The translations under genes were made by a program, and so were the position numbers. 12,690 nucleotides of DNA from Deltaproteobacteria bacterium RBG_13_61_14 (GTDB lineage Bacteria > RBG-13-61-14), in assembly GCA_001797815.1 (NCBI GenBank), contig MGQK01000082.1, positions 56,672 to 69,361 of the forward strand, in the 5' to 3' direction. The notes beneath the pieces are model-generated. The model had not been told where the DNA came from and did not search any database. It saw only the letters and a program-made list of their open reading frames with translations. The number at the start of each line of letters is the position of its first letter. The first letter of the stretch is position 1. Below, in pieces: positions 5,887 to 11,062 of the stretch.

Positions 5887-5940
5887 ATTGGGGGCAGAGC
5901 TTCAGTTGTTAGTTTGCATTTATGTATAGAGGAGTGGCAG

Positions 5941-6075: not shown

Positions 6076-6135
6076 ACTCTCAAAGCGGCACAAAGCGCGG
6101 CATTCGGAAGATCGGGGTCAGATGCCAGACCGGAG

Positions 6136-7185: not shown

Positions 7186-8550
7186 CTAGCTAAGTTGCTT
7201 TTCCATCAAGGGAATTGCCTCTTCCAGCACCTTGACCATTTGATCGAGTTGCTTTTGGGTTACACTCAGCGGGGGTGCCAGCCCCACCACTTCCATGGTC
7301 GGCCGCATATAGACCCCGCGTTTCCAGGCCAACTCGCATACCGTGGTCGGGGCCCCGTGGGGCGGCTCGAAGGGGGCCTTGGTCTTTTTATCTTTCACAA
7401 ATTCCACTGCCGCCATCAGACCCAGGCCGCGCACGTCTCCCACCGAGTCAAATTTCCGCAGTTTCTCCAATTTATCCAATAGATATCGTCCCTTTTCCGC
7501 GGCCTTTTCGGGCAGGTTTTCTTTCTCAATGATGTCCAGGTTGGCCATGGCCGCGGCGCAGCCGACCGGGTGGTTCATGTAGGTGAAGCCGTGCATCAGG
7601 GGCAGTTGCTCGGGCAGGTTTTCAGCGATGGTGTCGTAAATCCGGTCCGAGACCACCGCGGCGCCGAGCGGGATATAACCCGAGGTGATGCCTTTGGCCA
7701 GGGTCAGCATGTCCGGCCGCACGCCCCAATGCTGGAAGGCGAACATCTTGCCGGTGCGGCCGAAGCCGGTGATGACCTCATCCAGGATCAGGAGCACCTG
7801 GTGCCGGTCGCAGATTTCGCGGAGCCTGGGGAAATATTCCTTGGGCGGGGGGATGATGCCGCCGGAGCCGATCACCGGCTCGGCCACCACCGCGGCCACG
7901 GTCTCCGGTCCTAGTTCCTCGATCAGCTCCTCCACGGCCTTGGCGCACGCCACCTGGCAGGCTGGATACTCCAGCTCCAGGTCGCACTGGTAACAGTAAG
8001 GGGCCACGACCTTCTCAAAGCCCTCGGGTATGGGGTCGTAGTTCCAGTGGAAGGGCACGATGCCGGTGGCGGCCAGGGCGCCGTAGCTCAAGCCGTGGTA
8101 GGACCAGTTGCGGGAGATGATTTTATTTTTTTCCTGCCTCCCTTGCAGGGCAAAGTAAAGCCGGGCGAACTTGAAATTGGTCTCGTTGGCCTCACTGCCC
8201 CCGCAGCAGAAGAGCACCCGGTTCAGCCCGTATTCCGGAGGGAACATGCCGGCCAGCCGGGCGGCCAGCTCCACCGAGGGCACATTGCCCAGGCCGAAGA
8301 AGCTGGTCGCGTAAGCGATCGTTTCCATCTGCTTCTTCACCGCCTGGATGATTTCCTGCCGGCCGTGGCCCACCACCACGCACCACAGGCCCGAGAACCC
8401 GTCCAGAATCTCGCGGCCGTCCAAATCGCGGAGCACCGCGCCCTGGCCGGAGACCACGATTTTCGGCCCGTGCGCGGCATGCTCGCGAAGATGGGTCATG
8501 GGATGGATCAGGTGGCGCAGGTCCTGCTTGAGCAAGGTTTCTTTATCCAT
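7186..8550 (-). CDS. Class III PLP-dependent aminotransferase (omega-transaminase-like)
   Basis: A 454-residue fold type I aminotransferase of class III, the usual length. Visible landmarks are D50 and G51 in ILDGFSGLWCVVVGHG, the phosphate-binding CGGSEANETNFKFAR (116-130), Y151-H152-G in WSYHGLSYG stacking on the cofactor, E224 in VAEPVIGSGG, D257 in ILDEVITGFGRTG, the PLP lysine K286 in TLAKGITSGYIPLGA, and T323 in GFTYMNHPVG. It should move an amino group between an omega-amine or amino acid and pyruvate or a keto acid; the substrate cannot be read. An insert at 184-202 carries C186-x2-C189-x8-C198-x3-C202, known to me from a subset of such aminotransferases. GGGGAGGA gives a strong ribosome site before the ATG. 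It is transcribed alone, away from the RAYT unit. Confidence 0.93.
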   Translation of the reverse strand: MDKETLLKQDLRHLIHPMTHLREHAAHGPKIVVSGQGAVLRDLDGREILDGFSGLWCVVVGHGRQEIIQAVKKQMETIAYATSFFGLGNVPSVELAARLAGMFPPEYGLNRVLFCCGGSEANETNFKFARLYFALQGRQEKNKIISRNWSYHGLSYGALAATGIVPFHWNYDPIPEGFEKVVAPYCYQCDLELEYPACQVACAKAVEELIEELGPETVAAVVAEPVIGSGGIIPPPKEYFPRLREICDRHQVLLILDEVITGFGRTGKMFAFQHWGVRPDMLTLAKGITSGYIPLGAAVVSDRIYDTIAENLPEQLPLMHGFTYMNHPVGCAAAMANLDIIEKENLPEKAAEKGRYLLDKLEKLRKFDSVGDVRGLGLMAAVEFVKDKKTKAPFEPPHGAPTTVCELAWKRGVYMRPTMEVVGLAPPLSVTQKQLDQMVKVLEEAIPLMEKQLS

Positions 8551-8628: not shown

Positions 8629-8655
8629 GGGGTCAGAGCTTAAGAATTAATAATT
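8629..8655 (+). repeat. Left terminal inverted repeat of the RAYT unit
   Basis: Starts GGGGTCAGAGCTTAAG and continues as an AT-only tail built from AATTAATAATT. It differs from the reverse complement of the right repeat only at its 16th base (G here, T there). Confidence 0.88.
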
Positions 8656-8692
8656 TACTTGACTTGCGGTCCGATTCGGGTTAATCTGCCTC

Positions 8693-9640
8693 ATGGCTCG
8701 CCCGTGGCGCATTCAGTTTCCCGGCGCGATTTATCACGTTACCTCCCGCGGCAACAACCGCCAGGCACTTTTCCTCCAGCGCCGGGATTATACCGATTGG
8801 TTAGACCTGCTCGCCCGCGGCCGGGACCGATTTCAGCTTCAAATCTTCGCCTTCTGCCTGATGTCCAACCATTATCACCTTTTCCTCCGCACCCCTCAAG
8901 CCAACCTGGCTGCCGCCCTGCAGTGGCTCAACACCACCTACGCCGTCCATTTTCACCTCCGCCATCGCCGCTCCGGTCATCTCTTCCAGGGCCGATACAA
9001 ATCTGTATTAGTGGCCGACGAAGCTCACTGGCTCCATCTCTCGATCTATCTCCACCTTAACCCGGTGCGGGCGGGATTGGTCACCGATCCGGTGGATTAC
9101 GAATGGTCGAGTTTCCGCGATTATACTCGCCATCCCTCGCGCTATGCCTGGCTCGATCCTGATCCGATCCTGTCCGCCTACGGAAGCCACCCGGCCCAAC
9201 GCCGCCGGCACTATCGCCGGGAATGCCTGGGCCTCTTGGGCCAACCGCCGTCGTTCTGGCAAGAGCTGAGAGAGGGAGTGATCCTGGGTACCATCGAGCA
9301 ACTGCGCGAGCTGGCCAGGCAGCACCCGCCCCGGGGCCGGCTCGAAGCGGTTTCGAGGTTTCGCCGCGCCGGCCGGACGCCGGTGATTTTGGACCAGGAA
9401 ATTGAGCGATTGGAGCATCTGTTCGGCGAAAAAATTCTTCAGCCGGTGAGGGGTCGGAGAGGCTTCTTGCCCCGACTAGCCGCGTATTATTATCTGGTGG
9501 AACACTGCGCCGTGGCAGTGACCCAGGTCGCCGACCGGATGGGCGTCAGCGCCGCGGCCGTCTCTCAAGGCATCGTCCGCTTCCAAGCGAAACTGCGGGA
9601 TGATAGAAACTTACGCTTGCGAATGGCGACTCTTCCTTGA
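8693..9640 (+). CDS. REP-associated tyrosine transposase (Y1_Tnp, RAYT / IS200-like)
   Basis: A 315-residue Y1 HUH-endonuclease. The start PWRIQFPGAIYHVTSRGNNRQALF is typical of RAYTs. The metal-binding HUH pair is H60-x-H62 in MSNHYHLFL. The catalytic tyrosine is most likely Y119 in LSIYLHLNPVRAGLV, matching the spacing of H61/H63 and Y115 in the E. coli enzyme. FQGRYKSVLV (98-107) is another family mark. A basic C-terminal part (about 200-310) ends in a helix-turn-helix, VTQVADRMGVSAAAVSQG (274-291), which probably reads the repeat DNA. All catalytic residues are intact and there is no frameshift, so it could be active. The enzyme nicks and joins single-stranded DNA at structured ends. The ATG has no clear ribosome site; TTGACT at 8659 could be a -35 box but the matching -10 is poor. 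Confidence 0.93.
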   Translation: MARPWRIQFPGAIYHVTSRGNNRQALFLQRRDYTDWLDLLARGRDRFQLQIFAFCLMSNHYHLFLRTPQANLAAALQWLNTTYAVHFHLRHRRSGHLFQGRYKSVLVADEAHWLHLSIYLHLNPVRAGLVTDPVDYEWSSFRDYTRHPSRYAWLDPDPILSAYGSHPAQRRRHYRRECLGLLGQPPSFWQELREGVILGTIEQLRELARQHPPRGRLEAVSRFRRAGRTPVILDQEIERLEHLFGEKILQPVRGRRGFLPRLAAYYYLVEHCAVAVTQVADRMGVSAAAVSQGIVRFQAKLRDDRNLRLRMATLP

Positions 9641-9666
9641 ATTATTAATTATTAAGCTCTGACCCC
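9640..9666 (-). repeat. Right terminal inverted repeat of the RAYT unit
   Basis: An AT-only tract is followed by TTAAGCTCTGACCCC, the inverted copy of the left repeat (26 of 27). Its first base is the A of the transposase TGA stop codon. Confidence 0.88.
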
Positions 9667-9679: not shown

Positions 9680-11062
9680 ATGAGTTTGACTTTGCAGATT
9701 TCGCGTCGGATCGCCAAGGTTCATTTTCCCCAATTACCGGCCGGAGCTTCGGCCATGGCCAAAGTGGCCATCCGCGATTTCTTCGCCTGCGCGCTGGCCG
9801 GGTCGCGCACCCCGGTGGCCGCCAGGATCCTGGCCTACGCCCAACGCCACGAGTCGCCTGGACCGGCGCCCATCATCGGTGTGCCCGGACTCCGGCTCGC
9901 GCCGGCCGTCGCGGCCTGGCTCAATGGCACCCTCGGCCATGCCCTGGACTACGACGACGTCAACTCGGTTGCCGTGGCCCATACCAGCGCGGCCCTGGTC
10001 CCGGCCATCCTGGCCCTGGCCGAGACCCGGCGCGCTTCGGGCAAGGACGTGATCACGGCCTATGCCGTGGGCTTTGAGCTGATTGTCCAACTCGGCCGCC
10101 GGCTCAACCCCGCCCTTTACGAGCACGGCTGGCACTCGACCCTCACCCTGGGCGCGCTCGGCGCCGCGGCCGCGGCCGGAAAAATCCTCCGCCTTTCGCC
10201 GGAAAAACTTTGCCACGCCCTGGGCATCGCCTCCTCCTTCGCCGCCGGCACCCGCCAGAACTTCGGCACCATGACCAAGCCCCTGCACGCCGGCAACGCG
10301 GCCCGCGCCGGTGTAACCGCGGCCCTGCTCGCGGCCGACGGCTTCACCGCGGACCCGGACATTTTGGGAGCGGGCTACGGCCTGGGCAAGATTCTGAGCC
10401 CGGGCCGGCCCAAGGACCTTTCCGCCCTGGCCGGGAAGTGGGGCCGGCCGTGGGAGCTGGTGGCCTCCGGCATCGCCATCAAGAAGTATCCCTGCTGCGC
10501 CGGCAACCACTCTTCCATCGATGCCATGATGCGGCTGGCGACTGAACACTACCTGAAAGCAGAGCAGGTGAAACGCATTACCTGCGAAGTGCCGGCCCTG
10601 GTCTTGGGCATCCTCCTCCGCCACCGGCCCCGCACCGCGTCCGAGGCCCGCTTCAGCCTGGAATTCGCCATGGCCGTGGCCGTGCTCGACCGAGCGGCCG
10701 GGCTCCGCCAATACACCGACCGTCGCGTCCAGGACCCCAGGGTCCAGCGGCTCCTGCTCAAGGTTATGACCCGAGAACTTCCCAAAGTTATGCAAAAGCG
10801 ACTCGGGGGCGGGGGGCTTAACGGCGCCCGGGTCACCGTGGAGTTGAAGGGAGGCGAAAAAATTCAGGCCGAGGCCGGCGCGGCCAGGGGACATCCCGGA
10901 GAGCCGCTCCGCGAGGCCGAGCATTGGGCCAAGTTCCAGGAGTGCGCGGCCGGGATTTTGCCCGTGGCTCGAGCGGCTAAACTTTTCCAGGAGTTGAGTC
11001 GCCTGGAAGTAATTTCTGAGCTAAAATATATAGCAGGAGATTTAGAACTGAAAGGGAGTTGA
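9680..11062 (+). CDS. MmgE/PrpD-family protein (2-methylcitrate dehydratase / cis-aconitate decarboxylase-like)
   Basis: A 460-residue protein with the two-domain MmgE/PrpD fold. The active-site residues known in the family can be placed: D90 and D92-D93 in GHALDYDDVN, H101 in AVAHTSAALVPA, H152 in GWHSTLTLG, K200 in TMTKPLHAGNAARAG, K268-K269 in IKKYPCCAGNH, and H277. The positions resemble those of cis-aconitate decarboxylase IRG1 (D93, H103, H159, K207, K272, H277). Members dehydrate methylcitrate or decarboxylate cis-aconitate, but many act on unknown substrates. No prpB, prpC or other methylcitrate-cycle gene is near, so the substrate is open. The start is fixed by the AAGGGAGG site. The stop is 2 bases before the arsM ATG, so the pair is co-translated. 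Its promoter has probably been displaced by the adjoining RAYT unit. Confidence 0.88.
   Translation: MSLTLQISRRIAKVHFPQLPAGASAMAKVAIRDFFACALAGSRTPVAARILAYAQRHESPGPAPIIGVPGLRLAPAVAAWLNGTLGHALDYDDVNSVAVAHTSAALVPAILALAETRRASGKDVITAYAVGFELIVQLGRRLNPALYEHGWHSTLTLGALGAAAAAGKILRLSPEKLCHALGIASSFAAGTRQNFGTMTKPLHAGNAARAGVTAALLAADGFTADPDILGAGYGLGKILSPGRPKDLSALAGKWGRPWELVASGIAIKKYPCCAGNHSSIDAMMRLATEHYLKAEQVKRITCEVPALVLGILLRHRPRTASEARFSLEFAMAVAVLDRAAGLRQYTDRRVQDPRVQRLLLKVMTRELPKVMQKRLGGGGLNGARVTVELKGGEKIQAEAGAARGHPGEPLREAEHWAKFQECAAGILPVARAAKLFQELSRLEVISELKYIAGDLELKGS

Follow-up and report, generated by a model that had tools for sequence, protein, structure and literature searches.

A TIRtron whose inverted ends carry tandem heptamers that co-vary with a DnaA-like helix of its transposase

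Introduction

What kind of unit is a single Y1 transposase gene enclosed by long, nearly identical inverted repeats, is it mobile, and which part of its protein would recognize such ends? The locus that raises these questions lies in a window (the whole 12,690-nucleotide stretch of DNA analyzed here; contig 82, positions 56672-69361) of the 4.74-Mb draft genome of Deltaproteobacteria bacterium RBG_13_61_14. A preliminary description of the window considered the matched ends abnormal for Y1 enzymes. This view is out of date because elements of this kind were named in 2013 as TIRtrons and their transposases as TIRYTs, that is, Y1 genes with long inverted repeats and a GGGGWSAS motif (Di Nocera, De Gregorio and Rocco, 2013; PMC3733652). 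TIRYTs mostly correspond to TnpAREP subclass 2.1 (RAYT group 1 of Bertels 2017), whose members have a C-terminal helix-turn-helix, or HTH (PMC6006769). Whether the HTH reads the ends was left open in that study, whose comparison with DnaA boxes covered the GGGG head alone.

Our analysis identifies the unit as a TIRtron: IS-like, with a single gene that encodes a TIRYT, and of a known but little-studied kind. New here, from sequence comparisons, are the two-heptamer structure of the ends and their co-variation with the DnaA-like recognition helix of the transposase.

Organization of the unit

The unit spans 1,038 bp, and 13 bases separate its right end from the ATG of the downstream MmgE/PrpD gene (Table 1). 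No Rfam match occurs anywhere in the window. For the DNA of the flanking genes, no ortholog was found among the compared genomes (two from the same order, none at genus or family level).

The 27-base ends agree at 26 positions, as first described, with a repeat score of 24.5 against a best of 12.5 among 300 Markov-shuffled versions of the flanks. Because shuffled flanks reach at most about half the observed score, the inverted ends are not due to chance. The right repeat does use the last base of the stop codon: in the TGA at 9638-9640, base 9640 doubles as the inner base of the repeat. This overlap is ordinary, being found in 156 of 165 relatives, and the head itself supplies the stop (TGACCCC) in 82 of these; in the window unit it is shallower than in most relatives. 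The tail was described as AT-only, but the left tail has one G, at the mismatch. Internally, each tail consists of two 7-base direct repeats. A literature search with the literal end sequence returned unrelated primers only.

In the relatives, a TTGAC motif peaks sharply 34-36 bases before the ATG, and it lies at 33-38 bases in 76 of the 165. Because of this spacing peak we regard the corresponding sequence just inside the left repeat as a putative promoter (Table 1), although it is not among the sites listed by a sigma-70 consensus scan. The predicted transcription start falls at about the ATG of the TIRYT gene, and the TTGAC peak suggests a promoter inside the left repeat together with a leaderless mRNA.

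Table 1. Features of the TIRtron and its neighbors (window coordinates).
Feature	Position	Strand	Description or basis
Aminotransferase gene	7186-8550	-	Flanking gene
TIRtron unit	8629-9666		Inverted ends and one 315-codon gene
Left terminal inverted repeat	8629..8655	+	GGGGTCAGAGCTTAAGAATTAATAATT; sequence comparison
Left head	8629-8636		GGGGTCAG
Left spacer	8637-8640		AGCT
Left heptamer 1	8641-8647		TAAGAAT
Left heptamer 2	8648-8654		TAATAAT
Putative promoter	8659..8687	+	TTGACT, 17-base spacer, TAATCT; sequence
TIRYT gene	8693..9640	+	315-aa Y1 (HUH) transposase, RAYT/TnpAREP superfamily; ORF intact
Catalytic Y1 core, residues 1-145	8693..9127	+	Fold closest to 4er8 and IS200/IS605 transposases
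C-terminal DnaA-domain-IV-like HTH domain, residues 231-315	9383..9637	+	
HTH recognition helix and preceding turn, residues 285-298	9545..9586	+	Heptamer co-variation
Right terminal inverted repeat	9640..9666	-	Reverse complement GGGGTCAGAGCTTAATAATTAATAATT; sequence comparison
Right heptamer 2	9641-9647		TAATAAT
Right heptamer 1	9648-9654		TAATAAT
Right spacer	9655-9658		
Right head	9659-9666		
MmgE/PrpD gene	9680-11062	+	Flanking gene

The transposase and its classification

The catalytic residues named in the preliminary description (H60, H62, and Y119) are all present. The protein matches Pfam Y1_Tnp (1.2e-9) and scores 72.9 bits against NCBIfam REP_Tyr_transpos, just below the 80-bit cut-off. 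An AlphaFold2 model built on a 52-sequence alignment of family loci (mean pLDDT 88) predicts a Y1 core, for which the best solved match is TnpAREP 4er8 (E 1.6e-7), and a C-terminal HTH with helices at 258-271, 276-283, and 287-303. A profile of the family aligns with structures of DnaA domain IV, at E 1.5e-9 for the top chain and 1.6e-6 for 1j1v. Bac_DnaA_C is matched by 25 of the 52 aligned members; the window protein alone gives no match.

These features place the unit among the TIRtrons: a Y1 gene of the RAYT superfamily is bounded by 27-bp ends that are not GTAG REPs and that carry GGGGTCAG, and the long terminal inverted repeats and GGGGWSAS motif are shared with the elements of PMC3733652. 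In those elements, families of ends are reported to be scattered over the genome, in part as dimers; the window unit has a tail type of its own. The text of that paper makes no mention of the heptamer structure of the tails or of a link to the C-terminal domain. With TnpAREP subclass 2.1 the protein shares a length of about 315 aa, a Y1 core joined to a Bac_DnaA_C-like C-terminal HTH, and the absence of REPs nearby. The HTH that defines this subclass (related to Bac_DnaA_C, HTH_23, or HTH_28) is supported here by the family profile, the member matches, and the model.

Two other assignments were rejected. The unit is not a REPtron, as its flanks are matched repeats with GGGGTCAG heads and there is no GTAG hairpin. 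The E. coli TnpAREP/REPtron (4er8) has the closest solved core fold, and its REPINs are comparable to the short inverted derivatives described below; unlike the TIRYT, however, it has 165 aa, lacks a DnaA-like domain, and recognizes GTAG plus a hairpin. Nor is it an IS200/IS605 element, with 315 aa and an extra domain compared to about 130-150 aa for TnpA, and with inverted repeats as ends. Members of that group (IS608, ISDra2) share the Y1 HUH chemistry, but they use subterminal hairpins and guide sequences, whereas the TIRtron has matched inverted ends with tandem heptamers.

Tandem heptamers in the ends of relatives

Comparison of about 165 relatives shows one end plan: an invariant 8-base head, GGGGTCAG, then NNCT and two tandem heptamers, in inverted orientation to the left and right of the gene. 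Heptamers vary between elements and agree from left to right within an element. Across the 165, left-right identity is 0.98 for head and spacer, 0.89 and 0.78 for the two heptamers, and 0.30 past base 27. Coming right after that base, the drop to 30% sets the true length of the end at 27 bases.

The heptamer period is evident from identity at lag 7, which is 0.79 in 10 units of the same genome (0.31 when shuffled), 0.57 in 40 units from other genomes (0.30), and 0.51 in 91 further units fetched afterwards (0.29). The shuffles never reached the observed values and no other lag came close. At lag 7 the two heptamers also co-vary with one another: mean Z is 3.4 against a tree-simulated null, the top among lags, and positions 15 and 22 of the end reach a Z of 10.7. 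Such co-variation is what a single protein surface reading both heptamers would give.

Some relatives have no convincing ends, and three more distant ones (L056, L058, and L076) have an 8-base direct repeat instead of a 7-base one. Three others (L042, L046, and L205), as well as several solo sites in the genome of the window, combine the same head with palindromic, REP-like ends (GGGGTCAGRCCCC within a longer hairpin). Such palindromic ends might bridge the TIR and REP types.

Copies, miniatures, and mobility

The genome holds 12 full-length copies including the window unit, and 11 of the 12 have matched ends of the 27-base type, of the same design and with different tails. Among these paralogues, the tails of one element have an identity of 0.96, those of different elements 0.54. 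Ends of the GGGGTCAG type occur at about 100 sites, compared to one or two for a reversed control pattern. The head class is abundant, but the window tail, TAATAATTAATAATT, belongs to this unit only and occurs nowhere else in the genome. The window copy may be idle because its end type is single-copy. Ends paired as short elements, which the preliminary description proposed to look for, exist with other tail types: a 59-bp miniature inverted pair occupies four loci (L371-L374), and a 126-bp form another four (L360, L362, L363, and L364), with a diverged fifth (L361).

Two full units in another genome, G303 (L137 and L153), are 98.4% identical over 927 bp. Their identity ends at the heads, save for a 5-base GTCTT at the left, the right flanks differ, and no target duplication was found for the pair, a pattern that fits Y1-type insertion. 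The lack of target duplication and the common 5-base flank at the left end are also as in IS200/IS605 insertion. A draft-assembly artifact is a remote possibility for the pair, but its flanks differ on both sides. The G303 copies and the miniature families support mobility of the family. Of the earlier picture of a compact, mobile or recently mobile unit, what holds is that the unit is intact, that its terminal repeats are real, and that its kind appears mobile (paralogues, miniatures, G303); recent movement of the window copy itself is conjectural.

An unlikely alternative is that the gene is a domesticated, immobile RAYT-like gene kept for housekeeping, its ends being leftovers of an old insertion and its DnaA-like domain serving regulation or coupling to replication. 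RAYTs are usually regarded as domesticated, the window end type has no second copy, and the paralogues are each single-copy and 45-60% identical to the window protein, as in domesticated RAYTs, a finding that counts against a mobile element. Yet the catalytic residues are all intact, and the ends still match at 26 of 27 bases although intergenic sequence should decay. The left and right tails are likewise matched in 165 relatives, with identity stopping at the end of heptamer 2. The recent full-length copy in G303, the miniature families, and the co-variation of heptamer and helix (below) also speak against domestication.

Co-variation of the recognition helix and the heptamers

For each pair of a protein column and an end position, we computed mutual information and compared it with values from bases simulated along the protein tree. 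A plain permutation null was set aside because shared ancestry dominated its results. Tree and null model are both of a simple kind. Set 1 comprised 68 elements (75 under looser cut-offs) and set 3 comprised 90 elements from other genomes, with the regions fixed beforehand from set 1. The test-set genomes come from the same phylum as G395, which belongs to the Desulfobulbaceae.

In set 1 the strongest signal for heptamer bases 2-4 fell in residues 285-298, with an odds ratio of 8.1, compared to 5.3 in set 3 and 10.2 for the right ends of the union; these ratios are descriptive because column pairs are not independent. In set 3, p <= 0.01 was reached by 13 of 84 helix pairs vs. 57 of 1710 pairs outside the HTH, and the best region matched that of set 1 (14-residue windows starting at 282-284). 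In both independent sets, no 14-residue window anywhere in the protein surpassed the helix for tail positions. Head positions showed no preference for the helix and co-vary with the catalytic and middle regions. With regard to the comparison made in PMC6006769, it is the tail heptamers, not the head, that co-vary with the HTH in this family.

At residue 292, Lys occurs with G in 28 of 29 cases and Ser, Gly, or Met with C in 27 of 32; at residue 289, Ala occurs with A in 139 of 142. With Gln292 and Ala289 in its protein and A at both places in its ends, the window unit agrees with this pattern, Gln being a loose predictor. Base contacts of E. coli DnaA involve residues 432-435 and 438-439 (PMC5043019). 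In our alignment, residues 285, 286, 288, and 292 correspond to DnaA 432, 433, 435, and 439, so that the co-varying residues of this homologous HTH fall at base-contact positions. The TIRYT differs from DnaA in having two 7-base direct repeats with a variable second base as its sites, not a 9-base box, and in having no AAA+ domain. The co-variation supports a reading of the heptamers by the recognition helix, with one helix type per heptamer type.

We judge it improbable that this relation is a phylogenetic artifact in which related proteins simply have related ends. Related sequences do share both helix and ends, and N-terminal residues 77, 99, 116, and 117 also pair with tail positions, some at p < 0.01. 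However, the null was simulated on the tree, and the helix came out as the best window in two independent sets for tail, not head, positions. In addition, the residues coincide with the base contacts of DnaA, and from a chemical viewpoint Lys commonly pairs with G and Gln with A. Least probable is that the heptamers are host DnaA sites tying the element to replication and that their likeness to the TIRYT domain is incidental: some tails (e.g., TTCACATTTCACA) resemble the DnaA box TTWTNCACA, the heptamer core NAC[AT] resembles its CACA half, and the transposase domain is itself of the DnaA kind, but one DnaA cannot explain about a dozen heptamers per genome that track residue 292 of their own transposases.

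A model for end recognition

We consider it quite likely that the unit is a TIRtron whose DnaA-like domain reads the heptamers while its Y1 core acts at the head. In this division of labor, the Y1 core would most likely read and cut at the head; binding, cleavage, and movement are all inferred from sequence. Each end would be bound by two HTH domains in tandem, which would bring the Y1 core to the head. There, on single-stranded or hairpinned DNA, the tyrosine would cut at the outer G. The element would then rejoin at a new site without target duplication, in the manner of IS200/IS605. A private heptamer would keep paralogues in the same genome off each other's ends and let each drive its own miniature derivatives. 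A point against the model is the 7-base pitch, which sets neighbors about 240 degrees apart on B-DNA and gives no obvious fit for two domains on one end.

With somewhat less confidence, we favor a broader reading in which a captured DnaA-type domain reads tandem heptamers by a residue-base code, so that the dozen paralogues form insulated families and specificity can be read from the protein and perhaps reprogrammed. The code itself, which we hold on balance to be plausible, would pair residue 292 Lys/Arg with G, Ser/Gly/Met with C, Leu with T, and Gln often with A or T, and residue 289 Ala with A. The interest of the locus rests less on the window copy than on this heptamer-helix relation. 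It gives a computational answer to the question of the HTH left open in the literature, one that can be tested by binding assays and swaps, and offers an explanation for the many diverged Y1 paralogues sharing one genome. It also points to a second job for the DNA-binding domain of DnaA, in the recognition of transposon ends.

Solo ends and decaying copies

Elsewhere in the genome of the window, one locus (L045/L376, C45) is a truncated copy of paralogue L039, about 84-85% identical, which keeps the right end and is a decaying duplicate. The window itself has, at 5890-5916 (+) just downstream of a sulfatase gene, what is probably a relic solo end from this superfamily, GGGGGCAGAGCTTCAGTTGTTAGTTTGC following GATT. 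A second site, at 6108-6121 (+), reads AAGATCGGGGTCAG; its head has the AAGATC flank characteristic of solo ends of the A class, but no tail is recognizable. In this A class, 24 ends of the GGGGTCAGANCT class across the genome are preceded by a near-GAAGATY consensus, unlike those of the GGGGTCAGGTC class; the consensus may be a motif at the target or belong to a longer repeat.
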